Under the pieces are notes generated by a model. That model was not told the DNA's origin. It made no database searches and worked only from the letters and a program-made list of their open reading frames with translations. The translations under genes were made by a program, and so were the position numbers. From contig OY282370.1 in the NCBI GenBank assembly GCA_958295745.1, positions 1,545,724 through 1,609,723 of the forward strand: a stretch of 64,000 nucleotides of DNA. The letters run 5' to 3'. Shown here one piece after another: positions 5,165 to 24,134 of this stretch; position 1 is the first letter of the stretch, and each line of letters begins with the position of its first letter. This DNA comes from an uncultured Acidimicrobiia bacterium (GTDB lineage: Bacteria > Actinomycetota > Acidimicrobiia > Spongiisociales > Spongiisociaceae).

Positions 5165-8100
5165 ATGGATCTAAGTGAACTCGAACAAGGCAAACGGGTA
5201 GTTGGTGTTGTCCCGGGAGGCCCGGTCGAGGTGGTAACGGTCGAGTGGAGCGACGGCGATGTCGTCAACCTCATCTACCGCTCCGAGGCTGGCGTGCTGG
5301 ATCAGCGGCTGGTCACCGCGTCCGAAGCCGAACGTTTCGAGACGGCGGCGGATAGGCGGTGGTCCTTCGATGCCGACGGAGGGCTGTTCCGGCTGGCGTC
5401 GGAGGCCCGCCGCATCCAGCTCGCCCACCTGTTCGATCAGTTCACGGCGGTGGAGTCGTCCGGCATCGACCCGTTGCCTCATCAGATCGAAGCCGTCTAC
5501 CAGCGTTTGCTCCCCCTGCGGCCTCTCCGCTTTCTGCTGGCTGACGATCCCGGCGCGGGCAAGACCATCATGTCGGGCCTCTACATACGGGAGCTGGTTC
5601 TGCGCGGTGATCTCGCCCGATGTCTGATCATCGCCCCCGGTGCGCTGGTGGAGCAATGGCAGGAAGAACTTTCGGACAAGTTCGGTCTGAATTTCGACAT
5701 CTTCTCCCGTGACATGGTGGAGTCGTCCCGCACGGCCAATCCATTCCTCGAACGAAACATGCTGATCGCCCGCCTCGACCAGCTGTCGCGCAATGACGAA
5801 CTGCTGGACAAACTGTCCGTCTCGGAATGGGATATCGTGATCGTCGACGAGGCCCACAAGATGGCGGCTCATCTCTATGGCAACGAGGTCAACAAGACGA
5901 AGCGGTTCCGGCTGGGGGAGCGGCTCGGGGATCTGACACGCGGCCTGTTGCTCCTGACGGCCACCCCGCACAACGGAAAGGACGACGATTTCCTGCTGTT
6001 CCTGAGCTTGCTCGACGGGGAGCGTTTCGGCGGCCGGCTGCGCGACGGCGGCGCGTTGCCCGATACGAAGGACGTGATGCGCCGCTACGTGAAGGAAAAT
6101 CTCCTCACCTTCAAGGGCACCCCGCTGTTCCCGGAACGGTATGCCGAGACCCTCAAGTACAGCCTGAGCGAGCCGGAGCAACGCCTCTACGACGCGGTCA
6201 CCGAATACGTGCGCACCGGTATGAACCGGGCGGACGATCTGAAGCAGGGGGGCGACCGCCGTCGAGGTTTGATAGTGGGTTTTGCCCTGGCCGGGCTGCA
6301 GCGCAGGTTGGCCTCATCTCCGGCCGCCATCCACGAGTCGCTGCGGCGGCGTATGGAGAAGGTCGAGCGCAGGTTGGCCGAAGTCAAAGGATCGGCCAGC
6401 TCGGTTGCACCGGTTGCGGACTACGCCTATCCCGCGAGGGTCGGGTCGGCCGATTTCGAGGACTTCGACTACGACGACTTCAACGATTTACAAATCGAAA
6501 CCCTCGAGGAGGATGCGGTCGATGCCGCCACGGCCGAGCTGACCGCCGAGGAACTGGAAAAAGAACTCGCGCAGCTGCGCATCCTCGAACGCCTGGCCCG
6601 GCAGGTTCGAGAATCCCGGGTCGACCAGAAGTGGCGTCAGATGTCCGACTTCCTCCAATCGGACAAGTTCACCGACGGCGATGAACGAAGGAAGCTGATC
6701 GTGTTCACCGAACACAAGGACACGCTGGTCTATCTGACCGAGCGCATCCGGTCGCTCCTCGGACGATTCGAAGCGGTGGTCAACATCCACGGCGGGATGA
6801 GGCGGGAAGAAAGGCGGCGCGTTCAGGATGGGTTCCGCAACGACCCGAAGGTGCAGGTGCTCGTGGCGACCGATGCGGCAGGTGAAGGCGTCAACCTTCA
6901 GAGGGCGAACATGATGGTCAACTACGACATCCCGTGGAATCCGAACAGGATCGAGCAGCGCTTCGGACGAATCCACCGCATCGGCCAGAGACAGCCGTGT
7001 TACCTGTGGAATCTGGTGGCGCACGAGACCCGCGAGGGCAGAGTGTTGGAGCGGCTTTTTCACAAGATCGAGCAACAGCGCCGGGCTTACGGCGGCCAAG
7101 TCTACGACACCCTGGGGGACGCCCAGATAAACAAATCCTTGCAGAGGGCCCTCATCGACGCCATCCGGTACGGCGACAATCCGGCGGTCATGGCCCGCAT
7201 GGAGCAGGTCATAGACGGCGAAATCGGCCAGCGCTTCGTTGAGATACTCAAGGAGCAGGCGCTGGCACCCGAGAGCCTGGCCCAATCCGGCCTCGATGAG
7301 ATCCGGAAGCAGATGGAGTATGCCAAGTCCCGTAAGCTCCAGCCCGGCTTCGTCGAGGCGTTTTTCCTGGCCGCGCTGACGCATGTGGGCGGGCGCGCCT
7401 CGCATCGGGAGAAGGGGCGCTTTCAGGTGACGCGGGTTCCTGCTTCCGTCCGATCACGGGAGCGGGAAGCCCAAGTGCTGGGCCAGGTACAACCGCGCTA
7501 CGAGCGGATCACCTTCGAGAAGGTCTTCGTCGAGGGTCGAGAAGGCAAGCCGCGGGCGGAGCTGATCGCTCCCGGACACCCGCTTCTTTCGGCTCTGATC
7601 GAGACCGTCCTCGAAAGACACGGCGCCGCTCTCACCTCAGGGGCCATCCTGGTTGACGAGACCGATACGGGCCGGGCGCCGAAGGTGTTGGTCTATCTGG
7701 ATCACGCCATCACCGATGGGAGGATCGACAGCGGCGTTCAGCGGATCGTGTCGAGGCGTTTCCAGTTCGTCGAGGTGAGGGAGGACGGCGCGGTCGACGA
7801 TCCGGGCGCCGACCCCTATCTCAACTACCGGGAGCTCGCCGATGGTGAAGCCGAGCTGGTCAGGGCGAACATCGACCATTCCTGGGCCGATAAGGGCGTT
7901 GACGCAGTGGCCCGCAAGTGGGCCATCGCCAACCTCGCTGCCCCCCACTTCGAGGAGATTGCCGAGGTCTCCAGGGTTCGGATCGATCGGGTGCGCACGG
8001 CGGTCAGGGAGCGGCTCGACGGCGAGATACAGTACTGGGACCTACGCGCCTACGTACTGAGAGAGCAGGAGGATCAAGGCAGGAAACCGCGCCTCAACTC

Positions 8101-8668
8101 CGAGCGGGCTCGCCAACGGGCGGAGGGCCTCGCAGCGAGAAAGGAGCGCCGCCTTCGTCAGCTCGACGCCGAATCGGACCTGTCGAGCAGACCGCCCAAT
8201 GTGGTGGCGGCCGCTCTGATCATTCCTCAGGGCCTGTTGGACGGGTTGGCGGGGGTCGCCGACCCTCTGACCCGCGGCGACACCGCAGAAACCGACCGGA
8301 GGGCGGTCGCCGCCGTGATCGAGGCCGAACATTCGCTGGGACGGATTCCCGAGGAGCAGCAGCACAACAACCCCGGATTCGATATATTGTCACGTGACCC
8401 CGCCGACGGCATCGTGTACCAGATCGAAGTCAAGGGTCACCTGCCTACCACCCCCGAAATCAAGGTCAGCGCGGTGCAGGTCCGTCAAGGGAAGCAGAAC
8501 CCCGACCGCTTCCGCCTGGCAGTGGTCGAGGTACCGAAGGATCCAAACGCCGAGCCGGTGGTAAACTACTTGCTGAGACCCTTCGATGGATACGAGTTGC
8601 ACTTCGCCCAAACCCACCTGCCCCTCAAGGTCGCCGACCTAAGAACCCAGGCAGTAGCGCCTCAATGA
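5165..8668 (+). CDS. SNF2-family helicase with C-terminal DUF3883-like nuclease-fold domain
   Basis: The protein is about 1167 aa. Superfamily 2 motifs are in order: Walker A DPGAGKT (about 128-134), DEAH (about 228-231), TATPHNG (motif III), and QRFGRIHRIGQ (motif VI, about 600). A C-terminal segment (about 1040-1145) with NNPGFDI and QIEVKGH matches the DUF3883 type, a predicted restriction-endonuclease-like fold. The ATG at 5165 (protein starts MDLSELEQGKRV) fits family N-termini; an in-frame ATG at 5090 would add 25 residues. It overlaps the next gene by 4 nt and begins the helicase-unknown-methylase operon. Related proteins act in phage-defence loci together with DUF1156 and DUF499 proteins. 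Role here, as DNA translocase of such a system, is inferred from context. Confidence 0.88.
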   Translation: MDLSELEQGKRVVGVVPGGPVEVVTVEWSDGDVVNLIYRSEAGVLDQRLVTASEAERFETAADRRWSFDADGGLFRLASEARRIQLAHLFDQFTAVESSGIDPLPHQIEAVYQRLLPLRPLRFLLADDPGAGKTIMSGLYIRELVLRGDLARCLIIAPGALVEQWQEELSDKFGLNFDIFSRDMVESSRTANPFLERNMLIARLDQLSRNDELLDKLSVSEWDIVIVDEAHKMAAHLYGNEVNKTKRFRLGERLGDLTRGLLLLTATPHNGKDDDFLLFLSLLDGERFGGRLRDGGALPDTKDVMRRYVKENLLTFKGTPLFPERYAETLKYSLSEPEQRLYDAVTEYVRTGMNRADDLKQGGDRRRGLIVGFALAGLQRRLASSPAAIHESLRRRMEKVERRLAEVKGSASSVAPVADYAYPARVGSADFEDFDYDDFNDLQIETLEEDAVDAATAELTAEELEKELAQLRILERLARQVRESRVDQKWRQMSDFLQSDKFTDGDERRKLIVFTEHKDTLVYLTERIRSLLGRFEAVVNIHGGMRREERRRVQDGFRNDPKVQVLVATDAAGEGVNLQRANMMVNYDIPWNPNRIEQRFGRIHRIGQRQPCYLWNLVAHETREGRVLERLFHKIEQQRRAYGGQVYDTLGDAQINKSLQRALIDAIRYGDNPAVMARMEQVIDGEIGQRFVEILKEQALAPESLAQSGLDEIRKQMEYAKSRKLQPGFVEAFFLAALTHVGGRASHREKGRFQVTRVPASVRSREREAQVLGQVQPRYERITFEKVFVEGREGKPRAELIAPGHPLLSALIETVLERHGAALTSGAILVDETDTGRAPKVLVYLDHAITDGRIDSGVQRIVSRRFQFVEVREDGAVDDPGADPYLNYRELADGEAELVRANIDHSWADKGVDAVARKWAIANLAAPHFEEIAEVSRVRIDRVRTAVRERLDGEIQYWDLRAYVLREQEDQGRKPRLNSERARQRAEGLAARKERRLRQLDAESDLSSRPPNVVAAALIIPQGLLDGLAGVADPLTRGDTAETDRRAVAAVIEAEHSLGRIPEEQQHNNPGFDILSRDPADGIVYQIEVKGHLPTTPEIKVSAVQVRQGKQNPDRFRLAVVEVPKDPNAEPVVNYLLRPFDGYELHFAQTHLPLKVADLRTQAVAPQ

Positions 8669-9597
8669 CTGACTATTACACTGAAGATGGGCCACCAATG
8701 CTTTTTAAAAGACGAAGACAGCTTGCACTGATCGAAAGGGCAGAGGCTAAAGGACGGTCTTTCTGGACAGAAAGTCTAGATGAGAAAGTACGACAAAAGT
8801 TATTTTATCAGGTTCAAGATCTCACTTTACTCCTTAGGAGTATAAGTTTCCCAGGTAATTTTGATTTTCTTGCCAAGGCGCAACGCCATGTCCTTCGAGA
8901 TACGGGCCTCCCATGCCTATCTAAAAGCTATAGGTATGACCCTATAGAAGATGCTCTAAACTCCATTTTAGAGGCAGAAGAAGATATAGTTTTTTCGTTA
9001 ATTGAAGCTATTATATCACTTCCAAAACAGGCTGAATCAGTGCCGATTTCTCCTAATCATTTGTCAAAAGATGAAGCTAATCAATTGAATTTTTCCCTTC
9101 CTAATTTTATTGATAAAATACGCATAATTCTCCGAGAACACAGGATCAGCTACGATCTTGTAGGAGGAAAATTCTTGCCTTTAGAATCTCTTGTAATGCA
9201 CGAAAAGGTTGTTGTACCTACTCTTACCTTCCTTGGTAGTAATAAAGAATTTACCAATGCAGAAACAGCTTATTTAAAGGCTCTTGATGAGCTTCACAAA
9301 GGTAGTCCTGACAAAGCTATTACCGATGCAGCTGTTGCTCTCGAAGAGGCGTTGTCTGCACTGGGATGTGAGGGAAATAGCCTTGGCTCTCTTGCTAATT
9401 CGGCTATGAAAAGAGATATAATATTATCTTATGATAAAAAATTCATAAATTGGGTAGCAGCCGACCGAAGCACGAAGGGGGGTACTCACACTGTCAGCTC
9501 CGCTTCGACCGAGGATGCGTGGCTTACGGTGCATGTTGTGGGAGCAATTATTCTTCGAATCACCTCCGGGCCCTTACGATCTGAGGCGGCACAGTGA
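8665..9597 (+). CDS. Unknown AT-rich defence-operon protein, C-terminus Abi-like
   Basis: The 310-aa protein starts on ATGA shared with the helicase stop and ends on GTGA shared with the methylase start, so it is translationally coupled to both. Its base composition is far more AT-rich than the helicase gene. The N-terminal half is helical and charged without a motif I recognise. The last third (from about residue 205) has a pattern of A-V-A-LEEALSALG, then ST-G-G-H and a final hydrophobic helix, resembling the C-terminal domain of some abortive-infection proteins. That resemblance is weak. Its tight placement suggests an integral component of the system; no enzymatic residues are obvious. 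Confidence 0.8.
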   Translation: MTDYYTEDGPPMLFKRRRQLALIERAEAKGRSFWTESLDEKVRQKLFYQVQDLTLLLRSISFPGNFDFLAKAQRHVLRDTGLPCLSKSYRYDPIEDALNSILEAEEDIVFSLIEAIISLPKQAESVPISPNHLSKDEANQLNFSLPNFIDKIRIILREHRISYDLVGGKFLPLESLVMHEKVVVPTLTFLGSNKEFTNAETAYLKALDELHKGSPDKAITDAAVALEEALSALGCEGNSLGSLANSAMKRDIILSYDKKFINWVAADRSTKGGTHTVSSASTEDAWLTVHVVGAIILRITSGPLRSEAAQ

Positions 9598-12332
9598 GCG
9601 ACTACAAACCAACGTTGATCGAGGTGGCTTTGCCGTTGGCGGCGATCAACAAGGAGGCGGCTAGAGAAAAGTCCATACGCCATGGGCACCCATCGACCTT
9701 GCACTTGTGGTGGGCTCGTCGTCCGTTGGCGGCGGCGCGAGCGGTTATCTGGGCATCCTTGGTCGATGATCCGTCCGGAGACAATACCTTGAGCCCCGCC
9801 GAACAGGAGGTGGAACGGCAAAGGTTGTTTGAGATTCTGAAACGGCTTGTGAAATGGGAGAACAGCAACGACTCGGCTGTGTTGGGCGAGGCCCGGGCGG
9901 AGATCGATCGTTGCTTCCCCGACGGGCCGCCTCCAATTCTCGACCCTTTCGGTGGGGGCGGCTCCATTCCTTTGGAGGCACAACGGTTGGGATTGAAGGC
10001 GTTGTCGGGGGACTTGAACCCGGTGGCGGTGCTGATCCAAAAGGCAATGTTGGAGATACCGCCGCGCTTTGCGGGTTGCCGACCGGTGCATCCAGGCATC
10101 GATCGGGACCTTACTACTTGGTCAGGAGCTCAAGGATTAGCCGCAGACGTGGAGGCGTACGGTAAGTGGATGCGGGATGAGGCCGAACGACGTATCGGAC
10201 ATCTCTATCCTGATGCCACTGGTCCAGATGGTGAGAAGTTGACCCCCATTGCCTGGATCTGGGCTCGCACCGTGAAGTCGCCCGACCCTGCTTGGCATGG
10301 TCATGTTCCGTTGGTATCGTCGTGGGTTTTGCGCAGCAAGAAGGGGAAGCCCAGAGTCTGGATAGAGCCGATCATAGACAGGGATACCCAGACGATCAGC
10401 TACCGGATACAGGAGGGAGGTACACCATCCTACGATCCCACTATCAGACGAGGCAAAGGTATCTGCATAGCAACCCATGCTGCCATTTCATCTGATTATA
10501 TTAAGGACCAAGGCCGTGCGGGTAGTTTGCATAATCAACTGGTTGCTGTTGTTGCCGAAGGTTGGAGACAGCGTATCTATTGTGATCCTTCCTTTATACC
10601 TGATGTCCTTTTACCTAAGCCAAATAAATGTCTTGAAGAGAAAATGCCGCACTACTCTCAATACTTGAACCTACCTGCCTATGGTATTGATGAGTGGTGG
10701 AAATTGTTCTTACCCAGACAGATGGTTGCGCTTAATACTTTTTCTGAGCTGTTAGTTACTATTCGAGATAAAGTGATATCTGAAGCTAAGATATCTGGAT
10801 TTTCTAACAATGAGACTCCATTGCATGAGGGTGGTTATGGAGCTACTGCCTATGCTGATGCGATAGTCACCTATTTGGCCTTTGTTTTTGACCGATGTGT
10901 AGCGAGATGGAACCACCTGTCTGTATGGAACAATGTTAGAGAAACGCTTGAGCATGTTTTCAGGCTCAATGCTTTCCAGATGACTTGGCGATATTCTGAA
11001 GGTAATCCTTTTTCAGCGTCATCTGGTAATTGGCAAGGTCAGGTCAAGTGGATCGTTAAGTGTCTAAGACAGCTACCCGATATGAAATTACATAACCCGG
11101 TAATAACACAACAAGATGCTTGCATTAGTGTTCGGAATTGTCCTGGAGTAGTGATCTCAACGGATCCTCCTTACTACGACAATGTTCCGTTTGCTGATCT
11201 GTCTGATTTCTTCTATGTGTGGTTACGACACAATATTGCCGATATATGGCCTGATGAGTTCGCTACTATGTTGACACCCAAGGAAGATGAGATAATCGCT
11301 AATAGGTACAGAGCAGGATCTAAGCAGGCGGCCAATGAACATTTTGAAGCAGGGATGGCTGATTTTATGAAGGAAGTATCTACCTCGCAGAGTGCAATCG
11401 CTCCCGCCACGATATACTACGCTTATAAAGCCACTGAGACCAAAGATGGCAAAGTACGCTCTACTGGATGGGCGACATTCCTGCAGGCTGTTGTTGATGC
11501 CGGACTACAGGTTACTGCGACTTGGCCGATGCGCACCGAGATGCCCGGCGGGACACGAATGGTAGGGCGGAGTGTGCTTTCTTCTTCCGTTGTATTGACC
11601 TGTCGGCCCCGGTCTGCATCCGCTCACTTGGCTAGTCGCAGCGAATTCTTGGCGGCATTGCGGAATGAGTTACCGGCGGCGGTAAGCGTTTTGCAGTCGG
11701 GCAACATCGCCCCGGTCGACCTGGCCCAGTCCACTATCGGTCCTGGTATCAAAGTGTTCTCCCGTTACGCCAAGGTGGTGGAAGCCGATGGGTCGGCGAT
11801 GTCGGTTTCTGATGCGTTGGCCCTTATCAACGAAGAGCTCGGCGAGATACTCGATGGAGCTGAAGCCGAGCTCGACCCCGACACCCGTTTTGCGGTCACC
11901 TGGTATACCCAGCACGGTTATGAGTCTGGCCCGGCGGGCGATGCAGACAACCTGGCCCGAGCGAAGAACACATCGCTGGCCGGTATCGAATCTTCCGGCA
12001 TCGGCCAAGCTCGTGCCGGGTCTTTCCGGCTCCACCTACGCGGTGAGCTGACCCCGGACTGGTCACCGGCGACGGATGAACGGCTCACGGTGTGGGAAGC
12101 GACCCAGTACCTGTTGTCGGCCTTGAATCGCTCGGAGTCGGAAGCGGCCGAGTTGCTACACCAGATGGGCGGTTACGGCGAGCGGGCCCGCCAGCTCGCC
12201 TATGTGTTGTTCAAAAAAGCCACCGAAGCAGGTTGGGCTGAAGAAGCCAGTGTCTACAACGATCTGATCACTGCTTGGCCCATACTCCAATCTACTACTT
12301 TCGAGGCTGACCCTCAGCAACAACTCTTATAA
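9594..12332 (+). CDS. DUF1156 adenine-specific DNA methyltransferase
   Basis: The 912-aa protein opens with the DUF1156 signature (IEVALPL, then EKSIRHGHPSTLHLWWARRP). A methylase motif I variant, DPFGGGGS, occurs at about 117-124, and the catalytic DPPY at about 524-527, followed by YDNVPFADLSDFFYVWLR. This is the amino-methyltransferase arrangement of anti-phage DUF1156 proteins, expected to modify adenine in host DNA. The GTG start overlaps the previous stop by 4 nt. The middle of the gene (about 10.48-11.46 kb) is noticeably AT-richer than both ends, which suggests a mosaic origin of the target-recognition region. Partner proteins are the upstream helicase and the DUF499 ATPase at 15.3 kb. 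Confidence 0.88.
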   Translation: MSDYKPTLIEVALPLAAINKEAAREKSIRHGHPSTLHLWWARRPLAAARAVIWASLVDDPSGDNTLSPAEQEVERQRLFEILKRLVKWENSNDSAVLGEARAEIDRCFPDGPPPILDPFGGGGSIPLEAQRLGLKALSGDLNPVAVLIQKAMLEIPPRFAGCRPVHPGIDRDLTTWSGAQGLAADVEAYGKWMRDEAERRIGHLYPDATGPDGEKLTPIAWIWARTVKSPDPAWHGHVPLVSSWVLRSKKGKPRVWIEPIIDRDTQTISYRIQEGGTPSYDPTIRRGKGICIATHAAISSDYIKDQGRAGSLHNQLVAVVAEGWRQRIYCDPSFIPDVLLPKPNKCLEEKMPHYSQYLNLPAYGIDEWWKLFLPRQMVALNTFSELLVTIRDKVISEAKISGFSNNETPLHEGGYGATAYADAIVTYLAFVFDRCVARWNHLSVWNNVRETLEHVFRLNAFQMTWRYSEGNPFSASSGNWQGQVKWIVKCLRQLPDMKLHNPVITQQDACISVRNCPGVVISTDPPYYDNVPFADLSDFFYVWLRHNIADIWPDEFATMLTPKEDEIIANRYRAGSKQAANEHFEAGMADFMKEVSTSQSAIAPATIYYAYKATETKDGKVRSTGWATFLQAVVDAGLQVTATWPMRTEMPGGTRMVGRSVLSSSVVLTCRPRSASAHLASRSEFLAALRNELPAAVSVLQSGNIAPVDLAQSTIGPGIKVFSRYAKVVEADGSAMSVSDALALINEELGEILDGAEAELDPDTRFAVTWYTQHGYESGPAGDADNLARAKNTSLAGIESSGIGQARAGSFRLHLRGELTPDWSPATDERLTVWEATQYLLSALNRSESEAAELLHQMGGYGERARQLAYVLFKKATEAGWAEEASVYNDLITAWPILQSTTFEADPQQQLL

Positions 12333-12356
12333 GTCATGCCTTCTTGTACCCTTTAT

Positions 12357-12440
12357 TTATTCTCCGAAAGGTAATACCTGGGGATACGGCAGATCGGGCT
12401 TGGTGATCCGCATGTTAGAGTCGGATGGAGACCCTATTCT
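12357..12440 (-). pseudogene. Severed C-terminal codons of the PIN-domain gene
   Basis: If the insertion sequence and one copy of its 8-bp target duplication are removed, the PIN reading frame at 13888-14273 continues through here in frame and ends at a TAA at 12357-12359. The lost tail reads SPSDSNMRITKPDLPY and ends PFGE. The ancestral stop would lie 24 bp from the stop of the convergent methylase gene. This reconstruction rests on direct sequence reading of both junctions. Confidence 0.75.
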
Positions 12441-12467
12441 GGCTCTTCGGAAACGAGGGGGGAGTAA
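12433..12467 (+). repeat. ISL3 left end: target duplication plus inverted repeat
   Basis: CCTATTCT (12433-12440) is the target duplication, followed by the 27-bp left inverted repeat beginning GGCTCTTCGGAAACGAGG. Confidence 0.9.
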
Positions 12468-13887
12468 CGGGGAAAGTGGGCAGGAGGTGGGCTGGGTAAT
12501 CCGCGGGGTTGGGGGTGGGGTCCTCCATAATCGGATGTTGTAGGCACTTCCGAGAGAAGGAGGACCCCTGTGGAGCATGATCCTACGCGCATGTGCGAGG
12601 TGATGGTCGGATTAGGCGGAGTGGATGTTGTGGGGGTGGGTGAATGCCTGGACGGGGTATTGGAGGTCGAGGTCCGCACCCGGGGGGTGGTTCGTCCGCT
12701 GTGTCCGGGGTGTGGGGGTGGGGTGTGGTCGAAGGGCGAGAGGAGGGTCGGGTTGGTGGATCTCCCGGCGTTCGGACGTCCGGTGAGGGTCGGGTGGCGT
12801 AAACACCGGTGGGTATGCCCCGACGACGGCTGTGGGGCTGGTTCGTTCACCGAACAGGACCCCCGGATAGCCCCCGAGCGGGCGTTGTTGACCTCCCGGG
12901 CGGCCCGGTGGGCGACCAGGCAGGTGGGCGGGTCGGGACGCACGGTTACCGAAGTCGCCGAAGAGCTGGGATGTGATTGGCATACAGTCAACAACGAGGT
13001 AACCAGATGGGGCAAGGCCCTCTTGGACGCTGATCATGGTCGGGTGGGGAAAGTGGAAGCTCTGGGCCTCGACGAGACCCTGTTCTACCGGTTCGGACGC
13101 CGGGCGGCCAAGGTATGGTGCACCTCGGTCGCGGCATGTAGGCCGAGGCAGGCTGATCGACGTTGTCCCAGGCAGAAACACCCGCTCAGCAGCTTTGTGG
13201 CTTCGAGCGCAGCCCGCCGGATGGCTGGAAGGAATCGCCTGGGCGGTGATGGACCTGTCGGGCCCTTATCGGGCCGCCTACGACCTGATGCTGCCCCACG
13301 CCAAAGGCAGACAGCGCGACCCGTTCCACGTCGTTAGGTTGGCCAACGACCGCCACCGGTCAGGTACGCCGCCGCACCCAGAACGAGACCCTCGGCCACC
13401 GCGGCCGCAAAGGCGATCCCCTGTATCGGATCCGGCGGCTGTTGACCATGGCCCACGAACGGCTCGACACCCGCGGGGAGGGCCGCCTGCGGGGCCTGCT
13501 GGAAGTCGGAGACCCCTACGGGGAGGTTCGTATGGCCTGGCACGCGAAGGAAACCGTCCGTGATGTCTACGAAATCGACAACCCCGCCCTCGCTGCCCAA
13601 TACACCCGCCGACTCGCCCAAGACCTCCAAGACGGGTCCTGCCCACCGGAGGTCAACAAACTCGGACGCACCCTCGAGCGGTGGCACACCCAGATCGTCA
13701 ACTGGCATCACGCCCGCTACACCAACGCAGCCACAGAAGCCATCAACAACCTCATCAAACGAATCAAACGCATCGGGTTCGGGCATCGGCAACTTCACCA
13801 ACTACCGGATACGAGCCCTCCTCTACGCCGGGAGACCCAACTGGGCCCTACTCCCCGCTCTCACTCCCCCCTGAAATCCGATGAGCC
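12441..13887 (+). mobile_element. ISL3-family insertion sequence (1447 bp) with 8-bp target duplication
   Basis: Imperfect 27-bp terminal inverted repeats start GGCTCTTCGG on the left (12441-12467) and GGCTCATCGG on the right (13861-13887, reversed), 21 of 27 positions matching. The element is flanked by the exact 8-bp duplication CCTATTCT (12433-12440 and 13888-13895), the duplication length typical of ISL3 elements. It carries one frameshifted transposase. It is inserted in the 3' end of the minus-strand PIN-domain gene. The intact duplication means the insertion itself is still bounded by its original ends. Confidence 0.92.
12570..13874 (+). pseudogene. ISL3-family transposase, frameshifted
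   Basis: The frame opens at GTG 12570, after AGGAGG with 7-nt spacing. It encodes an N-terminal zinc-ribbon-like segment (CPGCGGG), an HTH and the start of the DDE region (GLDET). The continuation then moves to a second frame near 13.13 kb (GRLIDVVPGR to RDPFHVVRL), to a third near 13.36 kb (MAHERLDT to INNLIKRIKRIG) and back to the first near 13.78 kb (NFTNYRIRALLYAG). Three shifts in one gene make programmed frameshifting unlikely. The transposase is therefore dead, or the assembly has local indel errors. The original protein would be about 430 aa, normal for the family. Confidence 0.88.
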
Positions 13888-14273
13888 CCTATTCTTATGA
13901 GTTTTTTGTCAAAGGTGTCGAACACAGGACATTCGGCTATGAGAGCGGTAGCGACATGGATAGCGTCTTTCGTTGAGTATTCTTGATCCCATACTAATTG
14001 GCGTGATAGATGGCCAATTTCCTGAGTAACATCCCGAAGAACAATGTAGTCTCTCTGGAAAAATCCACGGATGAGTTCATCATCGGCTTTGGTCATCGAA
14101 ACCCTTCCGGTGATCCTGATCACTTCAGTTAGAGCCCAAGTAGAGGTGACGATGATTATTTTTCCTTGCTCGGCCGCATGGATCACTCCTTGACATAGTT
14201 TGCTTTCTGGTTCGTCTTTCATTACCGCTAGAAAACAAGCAGAATCCCAGTACCTTAGTTCAGAGTTCATCAT
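13848..14273 (-). CDS. PIN-domain ribonuclease (VapC-like toxin), C-terminus altered by IS
   Basis: The present frame encodes 141 aa with the acidic residues of a PIN nuclease: D10 (YWDSACF), E50, D103 (TKDAIHVATA) and D119 (FDTFDKKL). PIN domains cleave RNA using Mg2+ and usually act as toxins. The first ATG overlaps the stop of the upstream gene by one base (TAATG), indicating translational coupling. The last 13 codons (after RIG) derive from the inserted ISL3 element and replace an original tail of about 25 residues. All four catalytic acids are retained, so the product may still be active. Confidence 0.82.
   Translation of the reverse strand: MMNSELRYWDSACFLAVMKDEPESKLCQGVIHAAEQGKIIIVTSTWALTEVIRITGRVSMTKADDELIRGFFQRDYIVLRDVTQEIGHLSRQLVWDQEYSTKDAIHVATALIAECPVFDTFDKKLIRIGAHRISGGSESGE
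13861..13895 (-). repeat. ISL3 right end: inverted repeat plus target duplication
   Basis: Right inverted repeat at 13861-13887 (reads GGCTCATCGGATTTCAGG on the minus strand), followed by the target duplication CCTATTCT at 13888-13895. Confidence 0.9.
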
Positions 14274-15034
14274 TATCGACTATCAGCTAATATCCCGCGA
14301 ATGTCGTCGAACCCAGGGAGTTCGTCGGAGGGTGGCCGACGGTGTATTTTTTCAACTTTTACATACGCAAATTCGTCTCCCTTTTTGTGGATTTCTCCGT
14401 ATACAACCACTCGATTCTCAAGAGATTCTTTGACACTTTCGATTAGGTTACTCCTGAAATGGCATTCGATTCTCTCGTCGGTAAGAACTTCGTATAGGTT
14501 GAAGCTAGGGGCTCCTCTGGTGGAGATCATCTGTATTGTACCCTCCACTGACCCCCAACTCATCGTCCTGAGATCAACAAGATGTTTCGCGACAGATTCT
14601 AGGGTATGTGCACACTTGACGGATCGGCCACCGCTTTCTATTACAACTGTTATATCATCGCTTATTGCGACACTTGATATCCTGGCTACATGCCTCAAGG
14701 CTGCGTTGGTAAAACCGATAGGTCGTGTGCCTTCTTTTAGCTGCTCTAGGCCATCCAACACAGCTATGCTTACGCGCTCTGCTTCAAGTGGATCGGCATG
14801 CTCTGCGAGAGACGGGCTACATTCAATGATCAGGCTACCTTCCCGATGGCGGCTCACCAGTAAATCCTTGACATCGGCGACACCGAGATGTTTGCTTACC
14901 TCCTTGTAGAGGCTATTGAAAGAGGCCATCACAACAGATAATTTCTGCACAGAGATACCGATAGGAACAGATACCTCAATAGGTGTAGGCTTCTCAGTCG
15001 GAGACCTCTCCGAGTGTTTTCTCATGTCTTCCAT
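14273..15034 (-). CDS. Uncharacterised partner of the PIN toxin, putative antitoxin
   Basis: About 253 aa if started at the ATG at 15034 (protein begins MEDMRKHSE), which has GAGGG about 6 nt upstream; a GTG at 15106 would add 24 residues. Its stop TAA overlaps the PIN start, a typical antitoxin-toxin order. No HTH or known antitoxin motif is recognised. The C-terminus (ELPGFDDIRGIL) is a short conserved-looking tail that could contact the toxin. The gene is AT-richer than core genes. Antitoxin function is inferred only from position. Confidence 0.6.
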   Translation of the reverse strand: MEDMRKHSERSPTEKPTPIEVSVPIGISVQKLSVVMASFNSLYKEVSKHLGVADVKDLLVSRHREGSLIIECSPSLAEHADPLEAERVSIAVLDGLEQLKEGTRPIGFTNAALRHVARISSVAISDDITVVIESGGRSVKCAHTLESVAKHLVDLRTMSWGSVEGTIQMISTRGAPSFNLYEVLTDERIECHFRSNLIESVKESLENRVVVYGEIHKKGDEFAYVKVEKIHRRPPSDELPGFDDIRGILADSR

Positions 15035-15278
15035 GATGGCCCTCAGGTGGGTTGGCGGGGAATATAGCGTATCGAAAGGCCGCCCGATGGCTCTATCGCG
15101 GCCCACGATCCCCGAAATGTGGTCATGCCAAGAGCCGGGAGATGGTAGACGCCTGAGGGATCGGCGACGGTTGTGCGCAGGAGAGAGCGGCCCGCTGTTC
15201 GACCTTGGGCAGTCCGGGGTCAGCCTGCCGTCTACTCATCCGCGGCTATGGTAGCCTTGCTAGGAGGGTATTAGACTC

Positions 15279-18200
15279 ATGGCCATCACCAACCGCGAAA
15301 GCATCTCCAAGGCGCTGGAACTGTTACGGGATGGGCTTCGTCCCAAGTGCGAGGACACCTGGCGGGGTTTCTACGGGTCCGGCTGGCTCGGCATCGTCAA
15401 CAGCAGACTGCATATCCCGGATCGCCATCCCACCACCGGCGATGTGGCTTTCCTATTCAAGGCGATGAAGGCCACATGGAACGAGACCTTCGGCCATGGG
15501 TTTCCGCCAGCCGTCCGCTCTCTCGTGTTCGAGTTGTCCGATGTACGCAACAAGTGGGCCCACCAGCATTCCTTCACCACCGACGACGCCATCCGCGCCC
15601 TCGACTCCATGGAGCGGGTCCTCGACGCCTTCGGCAATCTAGAACACCGCCAGGAGATTCGTCGTCAACGCCGCGACCTGATACGCAGGATGTTCGAGGC
15701 GGAGTCGCGATACGAGCGGCGCCGAACAGCCGCCCGACCCACCGAAGGCAAGCCGACGGCCGGATTGACGCCATGGCGGGAAATCATCGCACCCCACGCC
15801 GATGTGGCCTCCGGCCGCTTCGAGCAGGCGGAGTTCGCAGCCGACCTGTCAGAGGTGGCGGACGGAAGCGCCGAAGAGGAATATCAGGACCCGCGGGCCT
15901 TTTTTGCCCGCACCTTCTTGACCGGCGGGTTGCGCACTCTGCTCATGGGGGCCGTTCGCAGGCTGTCGGGCGGCGGCGGCGATCCCGTGATCGAGCTGCA
16001 GACCAATTTCGGGGGAGGCAAGACTCACAGTCTCATAGCCCTGTACCACCTTGCTTCGGGTGTACCTGCCCATGACCTGCCGGGGATAAGTGAGGTGCTC
16101 GCCGAAGAAGGGTTGTCGTTGCCTCCCCGCGTAGCGCGGGCCGTCATCGTCGGCCAGATGATAAAGCCCGCCACGCCTGAGCCGGTGGAGGAAGGTATCA
16201 GCCTGCACACCCTGTGGGGTCAGTTGGCCTATCAGCTCGGTGGTAGGTCGGGATATGAGATGGTTCGCACCGACGACGAAGCGGGCACCAACCCGGGCGC
16301 GGCACTCAAGGCGCTGTTTCGGAAGTTCGGCCCGGCGATTGTCCTGATCGATGAGTGGGTGGCTTATGCCCGCCAGCTCCGGGACGCCGGGGTGGGGGAA
16401 CGCTTGGCAGGAGGGGACTTCGACACCCAGTTCACCTTCGCCCAAGCCCTCACCGAAACGGCGGCGGCTGCGGACAACGTGGTCGTGTTGGTGTCGATCC
16501 CGTCTTCCGACATCGAAGTGGGCGGTGAACGAGGTCGAGAAGCCCTCGAGCGGTTGAAGAACGTGGTCCAGCGCAAGGCCGCCCAATGGCAGCCCGCATC
16601 ACCGGACGAGTCATTCGAGATCGTGCGGCGGCGGTTGTTCGACCCCATTCCCGATGACAAGGCCAGAGTGCGCGACGGGGTGATACGGGCCTTCAGCGAC
16701 ATGTACCGTAAACGCGCTGCCGGTTTCCGCTCTGAAGTGAGCGAAGCGGACTATCGGCGGCGGATGGAGCTGTCCTACCCGATTCATCCCGAACTGTTCG
16801 ATCGCTTGTTCGGCGACTGGTCGGCGCTCGATAAGTTCCAGCGTACTCGAGGGGTTCTCAGGCTCATGGCTCTGGCTGTTTCCCAGCTATGGCAACGGGG
16901 TGACCGGTCGCTCCTCATCATGCCCGGCAACCTGCCTATGGACTCGGGCGCTCTGGTCAGCGAGCTGAAGAAATATCTGGAGGAGGGCTGGGATCCAATC
17001 ATCAAGTCCGATGTAGACGGCCCAAACGCCTTGCCTCTGATCATTGACCGGGAAGATTCGCGTTTTGGCCAACTGTCGGCTGTTCGCCGGGTCGCCCGCA
17101 CCATCTATATGGGTTCGGCGCCTCGACCAGATGGTTCCCGGGGAGTGGACGTCAAGTCGGTCGTCCTGGGATGCGTGCAACCCGGCGAGCCTATCGGACG
17201 GTTCGAAGACGCCCTGAAGCGTCTATCCGGTCGGGCGGCGCACCTGTACTTTGAGGACGCACAATATTGGTATTCACTGAAACCCAACGTCACCCGGATA
17301 GCCAATGACCGGGCCGCCTCCAACTTTACCGACGCCGATGCTGACGACCTGATTCAGGGTCGTCTGGTGGCTGACCGCCGCCGGGGGGCGTTTGTAGGAG
17401 TGCATGTGTTCCCCGGGGGCCCCGGTGATGTACCCGATGAAGACGATGGTGTGCGGCTCGTTGTAGTCGATCCATCCCGAGTTCACTATCCCAACGACAA
17501 CAACAGCCCCGCCATCGGGATCGCCGGCAAGATATTGTCTCAACGTTCGGCCGGTCCGCGGTTCCACCAAAACCTGATAGTTTTCGTAGCCGCCTCGGAG
17601 CCTAGACTCAAGGAGTTGCGCGATGGGGTTCGTAAGTACTTGGCTTGGAAGTCCATAGATGATGATGACAGGATGGAACTCACAGCGGCTCAACAGAAGC
17701 ATGTAATCTGGCAACTTGCTCAACGGGAGAAGATGGTGGCTTCGAGGATCGATGAGACGTTCGTCCATATCCTGACCCCGTTTCGAGCACCGGGAACGAA
17801 CGAGTTGAATTGGCATAAGACCAGGCCGACAGGTAACGGCTCGTTACCGGAGCGCGTTACCAACAAGCTGAAGTCGGAGGAGAAGCTGATCCTCGATTAC
17901 AGTGCGGTGCGGGTGCGGATGGACCTGGACAGATTTTCACTCTGGAAGGACCGCGGTGATGTTGAGGTAGGATACCTATGGTCTACCTACACGGATTACC
18001 TCTATATGCCGCGCCTTACAGGATTCAGTGTGCTTGAAGAGGCTATCAGTAAGAGCTCTGATAGCTTCAATTGGTCCGACGAGACCTTCGCCTATGCCGA
18101 AGCCCACAACGGTGAAACTTGGGTGGGTATCAAGGTCAATCAGCTGGTAAGACCGACAAGGTCCGGGCTGTTGCTTCGACCTGACGTGGTGCCTACGCCT

Positions 18201-18530
18201 TCCGAGGATACCGATGGCAAGCCATCGGTACCCAAAGACCCACTAGATATTCGAGAAATAACAGACGGAAGCGGTTCTCTTGCCGAGTCGGAAAGTGAAA
18301 CATCCGTACCCCAGCCAGGCCGATTCTATGCAAGCTTCGATCTAGACCCTGTTAGAGGGATTCACCAGCTGAACAAGATAATGAGCGAAGTGACCAACCA
18401 TCTTGGTGAAGGAGTAAAGCTTACGCTGGAGGTCGAAGCCGAGCTCGACAAAGGCTTCGATGAGCGAACCCGCCGCGTAGTGTCGGAGAATGCCTCGAAC
18501 TTAGGTGCGAACGGAGCAGAGTTCGAGTAG
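15279..18530 (+). CDS. DUF499 ATPase with N-terminal Swt1-type HEPN-like domain
   Basis: The 1083-aa protein has an N-terminal helical domain with RNKWAH at about residues 90-95, matching the RX4H motif of HEPN ribonucleases, as in the Swt1-type HEPN domains often attached to DUF499. Walker A (FGGGKTHS) lies at about 244-251 and Walker B (VLIDEW) at about 355-360. DUF499 ATPases occur with DUF1156 methylases and helicases in anti-phage loci. ATG 15279 follows AGGAGG, spaced 12 nt. It is on the same strand as the helicase-methylase operon, but separated from it by the convergent/divergent PIN module and the IS. Function as the motor or nuclease of the system is inferred. Confidence 0.85.
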   Translation: MAITNRESISKALELLRDGLRPKCEDTWRGFYGSGWLGIVNSRLHIPDRHPTTGDVAFLFKAMKATWNETFGHGFPPAVRSLVFELSDVRNKWAHQHSFTTDDAIRALDSMERVLDAFGNLEHRQEIRRQRRDLIRRMFEAESRYERRRTAARPTEGKPTAGLTPWREIIAPHADVASGRFEQAEFAADLSEVADGSAEEEYQDPRAFFARTFLTGGLRTLLMGAVRRLSGGGGDPVIELQTNFGGGKTHSLIALYHLASGVPAHDLPGISEVLAEEGLSLPPRVARAVIVGQMIKPATPEPVEEGISLHTLWGQLAYQLGGRSGYEMVRTDDEAGTNPGAALKALFRKFGPAIVLIDEWVAYARQLRDAGVGERLAGGDFDTQFTFAQALTETAAAADNVVVLVSIPSSDIEVGGERGREALERLKNVVQRKAAQWQPASPDESFEIVRRRLFDPIPDDKARVRDGVIRAFSDMYRKRAAGFRSEVSEADYRRRMELSYPIHPELFDRLFGDWSALDKFQRTRGVLRLMALAVSQLWQRGDRSLLIMPGNLPMDSGALVSELKKYLEEGWDPIIKSDVDGPNALPLIIDREDSRFGQLSAVRRVARTIYMGSAPRPDGSRGVDVKSVVLGCVQPGEPIGRFEDALKRLSGRAAHLYFEDAQYWYSLKPNVTRIANDRAASNFTDADADDLIQGRLVADRRRGAFVGVHVFPGGPGDVPDEDDGVRLVVVDPSRVHYPNDNNSPAIGIAGKILSQRSAGPRFHQNLIVFVAASEPRLKELRDGVRKYLAWKSIDDDDRMELTAAQQKHVIWQLAQREKMVASRIDETFVHILTPFRAPGTNELNWHKTRPTGNGSLPERVTNKLKSEEKLILDYSAVRVRMDLDRFSLWKDRGDVEVGYLWSTYTDYLYMPRLTGFSVLEEAISKSSDSFNWSDETFAYAEAHNGETWVGIKVNQLVRPTRSGLLLRPDVVPTPSEDTDGKPSVPKDPLDIREITDGSGSLAESESETSVPQPGRFYASFDLDPVRGIHQLNKIMSEVTNHLGEGVKLTLEVEAELDKGFDERTRRVVSENASNLGANGAEFE

Positions 18531-18697: not shown

Positions 18698-21600
18698 ATG
18701 AGTTCAGGGTCCGTTAACTTCAGGCTTATTAATCCATATGCTGGCAGTCAGAGCCGAGCCTTTGAGGAACTTGGCTTTCAGCTGCTAAAAGCTGGTATTG
18801 ATCAAGATTCTTGGCAGGTAACAAGAACAGGAGATCCTGACGCCGGTCTGGACTGGTATGCTACCGATGATAAGGGAGAGGTGCATGGCTGGCAGGCAAA
18901 GTATATCTTTGATATTAGTAGCTTGCTCACCAATATGACCAAATCGCTTAAAGCCGTCTTAGCTAAAAGGCCAGAAGTCAAAAGGCTAACCTTCGTTATT
19001 CCCTGGAACCTACCGGACGGTAGACCCCCTAGAGGTAAATCTGCTCGCCAGAAGTTTATTAACAAGGTTGAATCTTGGCAAACGGAAATAGATGGAGCGG
19101 AGAATATCGAGTTCTACCTCGTTGGTGAGAGTGAACTTGTTAGCCTTCTCGCACTTCCAGAACACTGTGGAAGGTTGCTCTTTTTCTGGGGTCAGCAGAT
19201 TCTCAGTAAGGATTCTCTTAGACAGATGCACACTAAAGCGTCTGATATAGCAGGACATCGCTATAGGCCCGAGCTTCATATTGATATTCCTATTCAGAAA
19301 GAAATTGAAATGCTTGGTCTTGGAGGCGACTTCTTCGAGGAGTTAAACTCACATTTTGTCTCACTTCGTGAGAGACTTAACAAACAGCTTTCGGTACCGA
19401 GTGAGTTCAAAGCTATCTATGAACAGGTTGTTACCTTGTGTTGGGAGATCATAAATAAGGGTGTAGGCTTTGAAGATGTAAAAATCATACTAAAACGCCT
19501 CAGGCTCCTTAGGTTGATTGTCTCCGAAGCAAGTGAAACGATTTCTGATGCTACATTAAAAGCGGAAGAATTACGGCGAGTAGAGAAAAGTAAAGTATCG
19601 CGGGACTCGTCAACAGGGTATAATATGTGGGATCGTACCGTCTACCGCTTACGACGGATTGCTGATACGGTGAATCGGCTCCAAAGTATGCTATCTTCAA
19701 GCTCAGATCTAATTGGTGGGAAACCTTATTTCTTGAGTGGTGAAGCAGGGGCAGGCAAGACCCATTTACTTCTCGATGCCTGCGATCAAGCACTCAATGA
19801 AGACAGACCTGCAGCGGTGCTCTTTGGGGAACAGTTTGGAACAGGGGACGACTTGTGGTCACAGTTGGCCAGGGGTCTTGGCTTAAGACCCGATTTATCA
19901 CAATTTGAATTATTGGGTATTATCGACGCGTGTGGAGCATCTAGTGGCAAACGTTTCCTTCTGGTGATTGATTCACTTAACGAGACACAGCCGATCTCCT
20001 TCTGGACCGACAACCTAATTCATCTCGTTTCGGCGCTCAAAGAATACCCTCATGTCGCTCTCGTCGTCAGTGTACGAACTACATATATAGAGCAGATTGA
20101 TCCAGACGGACGGCGAACAGAGAAATTTTCCCCCCGATATCATCCAGGTTTTGCAGGGAGAGAAATTGAGGCTACTCAGTTATATTTCGATCACTACGGA
20201 TTGGAAGTACCTCGCCATCCTCTTCTGACACCTGAGTTCACGAACCCGATGTTCCTGAAACTGTACTGTGAGAGCTACCAAGATTCCCCTGGAGCTCAGC
20301 ACGAATATGAGAGTCGGATGGCTATCTTCAATCGACTGATCGATAGTTGCACTACCAAAGTTGCCCTACAACTTACTGAGACCGGGTCACGCACTGAAAT
20401 ATCGTTTATCGAAGGCGATATTAAATCGGTAATAAACGCAGTTCTTGATGCCATGGGAGACCAAGGCGATGACCGATTAACCCTGCAGGAGGTTCGGGAG
20501 ATTGCTTCGTCCACCGCAGTGTCGGAAGAACGGGTAAACCGCTTTCTTTCTAGACTGGAGGCAGAGGGAATTTTTACCACTGGTAAAATGTGGATATCTG
20601 GTTCGTGGCAACTCGGCTTTCGCCTCACATTTCAGGCGTTCGGCGACTACCTTATTCTCAAGCGGAGGATTGACCGCCGGGACTCTGTTACGCCGATCAG
20701 CGAGGATAGTACCTTCGCCACTTGGCTCCTGAAGGCTAGCTGGGGTATTCAGGAAGCCGCCGCTGTCATTATGCCTGAGCTATACTGCGTTGAACTCCGT
20801 GACTATCTGGAGTCTACAGTACGGGAGGTAAGTGATGATACTAGGAAGGTCGAACAATGGTGCGATCGCTTCGATATATTAACCCTTGATACCCTTGCAT
20901 ACCGGACTGCTGATTCGATAACTAGCTATACGATAGATGCTGTCAATCGGAACTTGCAGAATGGTAAGGTTCTTCTCGAAGACTTCTATTCAAAGATGTG
21001 TATGGTCGCCGCTTTGCCAAACCACCCTCTGAACTCCTTGCGCATACACGAGCACCTGGCCAGCATGTCAATGGCCGAGCGGGATGCCACCTTCGGGATC
21101 GCTGTATACGACGCTCTGAGTCAAAGTGGACCATACTATCGATTGGCTGTCTGGGCGAGAGAAGGTCCATATCATAACTATGATAAGCGCGTGGTTGAAC
21201 TCGCAGCAATGCCGCTTATTTGGCTACTAAGTTCCCCAAATCGTTATATGCGAGATTGGTTAACAAAAGTACTTGTATGCCTGTTTGTCGGCCATATCGA
21301 ATCTTTGTCTGTTCTCATCAAACGTTTTGCGAACATAAATGACATATATATTCGAGAGCGCCTCGCCGCAATCGTATACGGTGTCCTCATGCGGAGCCAG
21401 AGTTCATTCGATCGTGATAGCCTCAGAAAACTTGTCATCAAGACGTGCACTTACTATCTCGAAAGACCGATTGCGAATGCCCTTGCATTAGACCATCTTG
21501 AAGGAATTATCGAATACAGTCTTACCCATGATATTATGTGTCCCGATGAAATCCCCAATCACACGGGTCCATATGGTCTCTCGATTCCAGATAACCCATG

Positions 21601-22975
21601 GAGTAAGGAATATATTGATGAGAACTATGGCTACGAATCCGTCGAAGACGAAAATAGGTACCGCTATGGGAGCATCTATGATTCGTTGTTCGGATTGGCC
21701 GACTTCGGTCGTTATATAGTGGACCGTTGCTTTGGACGTTTCACTAACCTTCGACGGACCGAACCGGAACCGCTTGAGAGATCTACCAGCTACTCCACGG
21801 AGGGAGCCCGTCGATGGATATTCATGAAAGCGATAGAGTACGGTTGGACGCCCGAGCGCTTCGAGAACTTCGATCGCGGGCGGAGATATGGTCGTTCCGC
21901 GGCGAAGGCAGAACGATTTGGCAAGAAGTATCAATGGATGGCGTACTTCGAACTCCTAGCAAGAGTTCGAGAGCACTTCCACCCTCAGCCAAGTTCGGCA
22001 ACCGATGCAGAGACGGAGTTTCAAGGATTGTGGGATACGTTCGACCGCGATATTGATCCGAGTGTTCCTCCGATAGACTCGTTTAAAGCGCTGCTAGAGC
22101 GTCAGGGAGAAGACGACACCACCTTTTCGCCGTCGGAGATTGTCGTTCCTTTGGAAGGCCTTGCCGATCAAGCGCTCGATCGATATCTGGATTCTGCTGC
22201 CGACGATCCGCTACAGGATTATGACTCGCTACCGAGGGCTGCGACGGTCGTGGAAGTCCTTGACGAGGCTGGTGAACCGTGGCTACTTCTTGATGCTTAC
22301 AATAGAGACCAAGTTGACGATCCTGCTCTTGAGTTCGGAATGTCCATTGATCAGATAAGCATTGTTGCGGTTTGGCTTGTCCCCGAAAAGAAAGCACAAT
22401 CAGCCGCGCAGGTACTACTCGATAGTGGCCCCGATCTGGATGGTCCATCAGATATGTGGGATCGTAACGGGCACATCGGCTGTTGCTATTTAGGCGAGAT
22501 CGGCTGGCGAGGTCAGGGATACTATCATCGTAGGACCGACTTTATAGAAGTTGCAAATGAACAAGGTATAATCCACCATTACCTACAAGTCGCTGAAGAA
22601 TATACTTGGGAATCAGGCCGGTTTGATGCCTCTATCACAAGTAGCACTCGTTTGTATGCTCCATCAGCTTGGTTGATATCAATGGGGCAGCTATCTTGGG
22701 ATGGTAACCTGTCATGGCTTGACGGGGAAAAACAAATTGTCGTTACCAATGTAGGTAAACACGGGTTCGACGAGAGCTATGGCTTGATCTTTCGGAAAAG
22801 CTGGCTCAAAAAGGTCCTCATTGATCATAACCTTGAACTGCTTGTTCGTTGTTGGAGTGATCGGCGAGACTTTCGAATACAAGCCCCGATAAGGTCCCTC
22901 TGGTCAAGCTCAATAGCCTTGTTCGACCAGTCGATTGCTTTGCGTTTCGATGACCGAGTGAACAGACCTTTGTAG
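18698..22975 (+). CDS. Avs-like STAND NTPase with N-terminal Mrr-like nuclease
   Basis: The 1425-aa protein starts with a restriction-endonuclease-like domain: E23/E24 (FEELGFQLL), D52 (GLDWY) and Q66-x-K68 (QAK), the Mrr-type PD-(D/E)xK layout. A NTPase follows, with Walker A GEAGAGKTHL at about 348 and Walker B LLVIDSLNE at about 421; this ID-LNE form is typical of Avs-type STAND sensors. The long C-terminal part (about 800 residues, largely helical) would be the ligand sensor. The gene is AT-rich relative to the core. GGAGG precedes the ATG at 6-nt spacing. Avs proteins recognise conserved phage proteins and then degrade DNA. Domain order resembles Avs4, but the sensor was not matched to any subtype. 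Confidence 0.82.
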   Translation: MSSGSVNFRLINPYAGSQSRAFEELGFQLLKAGIDQDSWQVTRTGDPDAGLDWYATDDKGEVHGWQAKYIFDISSLLTNMTKSLKAVLAKRPEVKRLTFVIPWNLPDGRPPRGKSARQKFINKVESWQTEIDGAENIEFYLVGESELVSLLALPEHCGRLLFFWGQQILSKDSLRQMHTKASDIAGHRYRPELHIDIPIQKEIEMLGLGGDFFEELNSHFVSLRERLNKQLSVPSEFKAIYEQVVTLCWEIINKGVGFEDVKIILKRLRLLRLIVSEASETISDATLKAEELRRVEKSKVSRDSSTGYNMWDRTVYRLRRIADTVNRLQSMLSSSSDLIGGKPYFLSGEAGAGKTHLLLDACDQALNEDRPAAVLFGEQFGTGDDLWSQLARGLGLRPDLSQFELLGIIDACGASSGKRFLLVIDSLNETQPISFWTDNLIHLVSALKEYPHVALVVSVRTTYIEQIDPDGRRTEKFSPRYHPGFAGREIEATQLYFDHYGLEVPRHPLLTPEFTNPMFLKLYCESYQDSPGAQHEYESRMAIFNRLIDSCTTKVALQLTETGSRTEISFIEGDIKSVINAVLDAMGDQGDDRLTLQEVREIASSTAVSEERVNRFLSRLEAEGIFTTGKMWISGSWQLGFRLTFQAFGDYLILKRRIDRRDSVTPISEDSTFATWLLKASWGIQEAAAVIMPELYCVELRDYLESTVREVSDDTRKVEQWCDRFDILTLDTLAYRTADSITSYTIDAVNRNLQNGKVLLEDFYSKMCMVAALPNHPLNSLRIHEHLASMSMAERDATFGIAVYDALSQSGPYYRLAVWAREGPYHNYDKRVVELAAMPLIWLLSSPNRYMRDWLTKVLVCLFVGHIESLSVLIKRFANINDIYIRERLAAIVYGVLMRSQSSFDRDSLRKLVIKTCTYYLERPIANALALDHLEGIIEYSLTHDIMCPDEIPNHTGPYGLSIPDNPWSKEYIDENYGYESVEDENRYRYGSIYDSLFGLADFGRYIVDRCFGRFTNLRRTEPEPLERSTSYSTEGARRWIFMKAIEYGWTPERFENFDRGRRYGRSAAKAERFGKKYQWMAYFELLARVREHFHPQPSSATDAETEFQGLWDTFDRDIDPSVPPIDSFKALLERQGEDDTTFSPSEIVVPLEGLADQALDRYLDSAADDPLQDYDSLPRAATVVEVLDEAGEPWLLLDAYNRDQVDDPALEFGMSIDQISIVAVWLVPEKKAQSAAQVLLDSGPDLDGPSDMWDRNGHIGCCYLGEIGWRGQGYYHRRTDFIEVANEQGIIHHYLQVAEEYTWESGRFDASITSSTRLYAPSAWLISMGQLSWDGNLSWLDGEKQIVVTNVGKHGFDESYGLIFRKSWLKKVLIDHNLELLVRCWSDRRDFRIQAPIRSLWSSSIALFDQSIALRFDDRVNRPL

Positions 22976-23132
22976 GCCGAATTGGCCACTCTTCGCTTAA
23001 ATTCTAGGTGTGTCTAGTCGGGTGCTCACCTGAGACAATAGATGAGTCATCAACGATGCCACCCCACCTACCGGCTGTCGTTGGAAGGTGTAGCCGTTGG
23101 GTCGAGGGGTGTTGCGGGGACCGGGAGTGGGG

Positions 23133-24134
23133 CTACTCGACCGTCCAGGTTCCCAGGCTGGTCAGCAGTTTGCCTAGGTCGCCGTTGCCGCGGGCGGCTT
23201 TGGAGCGGGTGACCTGGTCTTCTAGGGCGTCGTCGTAGACGGGGCGGTACACGTCCCGGAAGATGCCCAGGGGGGTGGGTCCGTAGGGGCCGTGGGCCAG
23301 GCGGGACAGGGCGAAGGCCTGCGAGGCGTCTTCGGCGTGGGCGTTGTGGACGATGATCCGTGAGGGGTCTACGGATGCGCGGTTGACGATCACCGCTCGG
23401 CCTTCCTCCCACACCACGGCCTTCTCCCGGTCGGCGCCGAACACGATCGGTTCTCCATGCACCAGGTTGATCCGGTTCTCGCGCCGTTCCTGCTTGCCGG
23501 TCAGCGCGATGAAGGCCTTGTCGTTGAACACGTTGCAGTTCTGGTAGATCTCGATCAACGACGACCCGCGGTGCTGGTGGGCGGCCTTCAACATGGAGGT
23601 CGTGTGGTTGCGGTCCATGTCCAGGGTGCGGGCCACGAAGGTGGCTTCCGCCCCTATGGCCAGGCTCACCGGGTTGAATGGGTAGTCGAGCGAGCCCGCC
23701 GGGGACGACTTGGTGGCCTTGCCGGGCTCGGAGGTGGGCGAGTACTGGCCTTTCGTCAGGCCGTATATCTGGTTGTTGAACAGCAGGATGGTGAGGTCCA
23801 CGTTGCGCCGCAAGGCGTGGATCAGGTGGTTGCCTCCGATCGACAGCAGGTCGCCGTCGCCCCCCACCACCCAGACCGACAGCCGGGGGTTGGCGATGGC
23901 CACCCCGGTGGCGATGGCCGGCGCCCGTCCGTGGATGGAGTGCATCCCGTAGGTATTCATGTAGTACGGGAAACGGGCCGCACACCCGATGCCGGATACG
24001 AACACCACGTTCTCACGCTCGATGTCCAGCCCGGCCATGAAGTTCTGGACGGCGGCCAGGATCGTGTAGTCGCCGCATCCGGGGCACCAGCGCACCTCCT
24101 GGTCGGTTTGGAAATCGACCCGTGTGTAGCTCAT
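23133..24134 (-). CDS. korB: 2-oxoacid:ferredoxin oxidoreductase, beta subunit
   Basis: The 333-aa protein has the thiamine-pyrophosphate domain of the family: WCPGCGDYT near the N-terminus, GIGCAARFPYY, and the TPP motif GDGD...N (VVGGDGDLLSIGGNHL, then NNQIYGLTKGQ). With KorA it would oxidise 2-oxoglutarate (or a similar 2-oxoacid) to the acyl-CoA and reduce ferredoxin. Its start overlaps the korA stop by 4 nt. The last codons are copied 18.4 kb away at the edge of the accessory block. The substrate is not certain from sequence alone. Confidence 0.94.
   Translation of the reverse strand: MSYTRVDFQTDQEVRWCPGCGDYTILAAVQNFMAGLDIERENVVFVSGIGCAARFPYYMNTYGMHSIHGRAPAIATGVAIANPRLSVWVVGGDGDLLSIGGNHLIHALRRNVDLTILLFNNQIYGLTKGQYSPTSEPGKATKSSPAGSLDYPFNPVSLAIGAEATFVARTLDMDRNHTTSMLKAAHQHRGSSLIEIYQNCNVFNDKAFIALTGKQERRENRINLVHGEPIVFGADREKAVVWEEGRAVIVNRASVDPSRIIVHNAHAEDASQAFALSRLAHGPYGPTPLGIFRDVYRPVYDDALEDQVTRSKAARGNGDLGKLLTSLGTWTVE
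23137..23165. repeat. Right copy of 29-bp direct repeat, within the korB 3' end
   Basis: Identical to 4693-4721. Here it codes for the C-terminal residues LTSLGTWTVE of KorB and touches its stop codon. It bounds the accessory block on the right; the distance between copies is 18,444 bp. Location at the 3' end of a housekeeping gene is typical of integration sites that preserve the target gene. Confidence 0.85.

Follow-up and report, generated by a model that had tools for sequence, protein, structure and literature searches.

At positions 18698–22975 of the plus strand, the window analysed here, a stretch of 64,000 nucleotides, carries one intact open reading frame that encodes 1425 aa. It begins with ATG, has no internal stop codons, and is preceded about 8 nt upstream by GGAGG, a plausible ribosome-binding site. 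The gene, referred to here as avs2, starts 167 bp 3' of hmaC on the same strand and follows a complete Hma system (HmaA, HmaB, and HmaC; 5090–18530). The principal features, in window coordinates, are as follows.

5090–8668: hmaA, upstream of avs2; PADLOC/profile match
9594–12332: hmaB, upstream of avs2; PADLOC/profile match
15279–18530: hmaC, upstream of avs2; PADLOC/profile match, with an N-terminal Swt1-like HEPN domain
18698–22975, plus strand: avs2 (1425 aa); all segments match PADLOC Avs2
18698–19192, plus strand: Mrr-like PD-(D/E)xK nuclease domain, residues about 1–165; PADLOC profile, model, and motif conservation
18893–18901, plus strand: QxK catalytic motif, Q66-A-K68; alignment of 85 sequences
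19718–20287, plus strand: STAND/NACHT-type NTPase domain, residues about 341–530; profile searches, model, and fold re-alignment
19739–19765, plus strand: Walker A, GEAGAGKTH (348–356); G, G, G, K, and H invariant in 85 sequences
19967–19984, plus strand: Walker B and the residues that follow it, IDSLNE (424–429); D425 and N428 invariant in 85 sequences
20336–22972, plus strand: helical-repeat sensor and C-terminal alpha/beta part, residues 547–1425; profile against 9o4e, and Foldseek against Avs3-terminase
21923–21940, plus strand: KKYQWM block, the best-conserved stretch of the distal sensor; two alignments
22067–22972, plus strand: last 302 residues of the sensor, its most divergent part; PADLOC and a profile of relatives

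Several other features lie among the Hma genes. The interval between hmaB and hmaC contains fragments of an ISL3 transposase, a PIN-domain gene, and a gene on the other strand without a convincing family. A 277-aa protein encoded at 14273–15106 (minus strand) adjoins the PIN-domain gene, found no convincing family in profile searches, and is possibly the partner of the PIN toxin. Between hmaA and hmaB, a 310-aa protein (8665–9597) weakly resembles AbiJ_NTD4 and the STM4504/CBY_0614 family and is a possible accessory of the Hma operon. There is also a 26-nt inverted repeat at 12047/15199, the left arm of which falls within hmaB, although the match of that gene to its family extends almost to its end. 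A second hmaC is present in the same genome at C1:2805337.

The whole Hma-Avs2 block, 18.4 kb in length, is bracketed by a 43-nt direct repeat (93%) at 4679–4721 and 23123–23165. Its 30-nt core occurs in only two copies in the genome, and the right copy covers the 3' end of the neighbouring 2-oxoacid:ferredoxin oxidoreductase beta gene, past the end of which the sequence varies among relatives. No integrase was recognised within the block. The repeats look like the att sites of an integrated element, and the lower G+C content of the block relative to its surroundings, together with flanking repeats derived in sequence from the oxidoreductase gene's 3' end, suggests that the Hma and Avs2 genes arrived as a mobile block.

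The initial annotation described an Avs-type protein with nuclease, STAND, and sensor parts, and the intact reading frame and profile searches agree with this description. Six PADLOC models for Avs2 (PDLC02161–02166) match the protein with scores that reach 862 bits, the best being PDLC02164 with an E-value far beyond chance (2.6e-259), and the match to PDLC02162 covers residues 5–1387 of 1425. Besides Avs2, the PADLOC search listed only a marginal match to Nhi (E 0.068), and when the protein was cut into five segments that were each searched alone, Avs2 was the sole match for every one. A phmmer comparison with the solved Avs2 9o4e gave an E-value of 3e-85, a likeness that rests on sequence because 9o4e is not among the fold-search matches listed; a literature search for a paper on an Avs2 structure found none. 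Alignment with the R. marinus protein that NCBI annotates as Avs2 runs the full length. The window protein has in common with the Avs2 reference set (PDLC02161–02166, NF041813, and 9o4e) the domain order, the NTPase motifs, and the entire sensor including the last 300 residues, but differs in its low identity and in falling below the NCBIfam naming cut-off (NF041813; 624.9 bits against a curated cut-off of 1000). Since the best identity is 36% and the NCBIfam score lies under that cut-off, it is regarded as divergent; it is almost certainly a complete member of Avs2 (AVAST type 2) nonetheless.

The N-terminal effector is a PD-(D/E)xK nuclease with a conserved motif. Residues 1–200 match a PADLOC Avs2 profile (E 3.6e-42), while a Pfam search returned no match for this region. 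In the predicted model of the N-terminal 550 residues (pLDDT 88.6), the core elements run helix-strand-strand-strand-helix-strand across residues 18–100, with pLDDT values of 83–97. The motif D48-x-G50-x-D/E52...Q66-A-K68, together with F22-E23-E24, is conserved in an alignment of 85 sequences (the window protein, which has D52, and 84 relatives). Q66 is kept in 70 of these and K68 in 71. The QxK motif of the Mrr-like nuclease proposed earlier is present, and most of the alignment retains it; several of the sequences that lack these residues possess another N-terminal domain. The nuclease profile gave no alignment to the N-terminal effector of 9o4e, which indicates that effectors vary within Avs2.

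It is this half of the protein that gave rise to the earlier impression of an Avs4 domain order, as the nuclease and NTPase together resemble Avs4. The top Foldseek matches of the 550-residue model are Avs4 chains, the best being the portal-bound 8dgf, in which an Mrr-like nuclease is likewise followed by a STAND NTPase, and the nuclease profile weakly matches Avs4 residues 5–109 (E 9e-4). The impression holds for the N-terminal half and fails for the protein as a whole: the NCBIfam Avs4 model (NF041815) scores 14.3 bits where its cut-off is 1500, over residues 48–118 only and with nothing beyond the nuclease, as against up to 862 bits for the Avs2 models of PADLOC. The Mrr-like nuclease is common to many Avs2 proteins and hence cannot distinguish Avs4 from Avs2. 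Furthermore, the sensor is unlike that of Avs4 by sequence, and in fold it comes closest to Avs3 in complex with terminase. Membership of Avs4 was accordingly rejected on profile scores, a full-length sequence match being absent, and a portal-sensing protein of the Avs4 type is an exceedingly improbable reading of this gene.

The STAND NTPase is intact, with both Walker A and Walker B present. The GEAGAGKTH and IDSLNE motifs, the second of which had been pointed out in the initial annotation alongside Walker A/B, contain residues that are invariant in all 85 aligned sequences (G348, G351, G353, K354, H356, D425, and N428), as is R460. When re-aligned by fold, this part of the protein gave Z scores of 12.7–13.4 with the NTPases of NLRC4, NOD2, NLRP3, and plant NLR resistosomes.

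The long C-terminal sensor comprises 879 residues, where about 800 had first been estimated, and can be aligned with relatives across its whole length. A family profile built from the window protein and 63 relatives aligns with residues 543–1481 of the 1484 in the solved Avs2 9o4e (984 bits, E 5.9e-295), and on this sequence match the sensor is judged homologous to that of the solved protein, that is, Avs2's own. Within its distal part, K1077 and Y1078 of the KKYQWM block are invariant in a 12-sequence alignment, and the equivalent K531 and Y532 are invariant in 64 sequences; segments 1126–1175 and 1276–1300 are poorly conserved. The last 302 residues, for which a Pfam search found no match, still identify PADLOC Avs2 PDLC02164 when searched alone (E 1.9e-18). 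Against a profile of relatives from which the window protein was left out they score 86.5 bits, compared with 4.8 for the best of 300 shuffles; the underlying alignment had been built with the window protein included, and the PADLOC search is therefore the independent test of this region.

Fold comparison leads to a related family. The predicted sensor model is confident (pLDDT 83.7, pTM 0.88), and when Foldseek compared it with the PDB only 8dgc, the complex of Avs3 with phage terminase, matched significantly (E 7e-6), the two chains of the terminase-bound Avs3 being the only matches at E up to 0.001. Re-alignment with 8dgc extended over 476 residues, as far as model residue 872, with a Z score of 14.3 and an rmsd of 7.0, and the next chain had a Z score of 9.6; Avs4 has no row in this re-alignment, which by itself excludes nothing. 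Avs3 thus shares the sensor fold up to the C-terminus but differs in being larger (2004 modelled residues) and only 13% identical, and neither PADLOC nor NCBIfam listed an Avs3 model with an E-value of 0.1 or lower, although the sensor fold is Avs3-like. The initial annotation had left the sensor unassigned, and had named a strong full-length match to a described Avs subtype as the observation that would speak against it. Such a match was found, to Avs2, with every segment assigned and the profile covering nearly all of the 9o4e sensor. A sensor of unrecognised type was rejected on the evidence of the PADLOC segments, the 9o4e profile match, the Avs3 fold, and the shuffle control.

These observations are most readily understood if the protein is an Avs2 pattern-recognition receptor, a reading to which we assign a probability of about 0.9, and if it works as the Avs2 proteins studied so far do. 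The helical-repeat sensor would bind a conserved protein that the phage produces late in infection, with the large terminase subunit as the likeliest candidate; ligand binding and ATP would cause the STAND NTPase to oligomerise, and the clustered Mrr-like domains would go on to cut the DNA of phage and host alike, ending the infection at the cell's cost. Domains, conserved motifs, full-length Avs2 homology, and the likeness of the sensor fold to terminase-bound Avs3 are directly supported, whereas the ligand, the oligomerisation step, cutting of DNA, and protection of the cell, if any, are inferred from studied Avs2 proteins. Later papers that cite the primary work on Avs1–4 state that Avs1–3 sense the large terminase subunit, the ligand of Avs4 being the portal (PMC12724215), and that the nucleases of Avs1–4 cleave both phage and host DNA (PMC12931631); it is on account of these ligands and activities that terminase-triggered oligomerisation and DNA cleavage are considered most likely.

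The large terminase is probably a ligand of the window protein, although the family name does not in itself give the ligand because Klebsiella Avs2 is reported to respond to Ksap1 as well as terminase (PMC12724215, PMC12931631). That dual recognition, and the low conservation at 1126–1175 and 1276–1300 that would be expected of a changing contact surface, lend some weight to the idea that the sensor of this Avs2 has been redirected to a non-terminase phage protein. This is nevertheless unlikely, as the core and C-terminal part of the sensor are conserved and run co-linearly with those of Avs2 and, at the level of fold, of Avs3 bound to terminase, and there is no specific pointer to another ligand. 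Less likely again is a divergent actinobacterial Avs2 whose altered sensor recognises none of terminase, portal, and Ksap1 but some different phage protein.

Proteins of the same layout are present across bacteria and archaea. An alignment-based scan of genome contigs recovered at least 112 relatives, from which a set of 80 was retained, while a scan with the single protein as query recovered none. They span Actinomycetota, Binatia, Planctomycetota, Bacteroidota, Proteobacteria, Cyanobacteria, haloarchaea, and others, and plasmid copies include the R. marinus protein mentioned above. The nearest among those recovered (L040; 36% identity) adjoins a phage-type integrase gene. In L063, L067, L072, L095, L096, L100, L103, L105, and L112, mainly from Bacteroidota, the STAND and sensor parts are alike and the N-terminal effector is different; by inspection, these effectors look like a trypsin-like protease or a membrane-spanning segment.

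The position of avs2 just downstream of hmaC, on the same strand, raises the question of whether Avs2 functions as a component of the restriction-like Hma operon that precedes it instead of as a system of its own. Comparable arrangements occur elsewhere: in L041 an Avs2 gene is embedded, with gene overlaps, in an operon resembling Hma, and in L058 and L007 the Avs2 gene comes after a DUF499-DUF3780-DUF1156-helicase operon and the pglX gene of BREX, respectively. Avs2 frequently has other neighbours, however, and within the Acidimicrobiia, 33 of the 395 genomes sampled for Hma carry it, as against 3 of 296 for Avs2; of those three, only the window's own genome is also an Hma carrier. Co-occurrence within the class lends no support to a fixed Hma-Avs2 unit, and dependence of Avs2 on Hma is very unlikely. 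The L041 locus (L041:1-19556, from Candidatus Binatia) additionally contains two pairs of ATPase and DUF4276 genes that are HEC-01-like.

The repeated occurrence of Avs2 beside restriction-like systems (Hma, DUF499-DUF1156, and BREX) fits the general clustering of defence genes in islands. The sensor that had seemed unplaceable is the described Avs2 sensor, and the protein adds one divergent member to Avs2, a subtype that, like its sensor, was already known.
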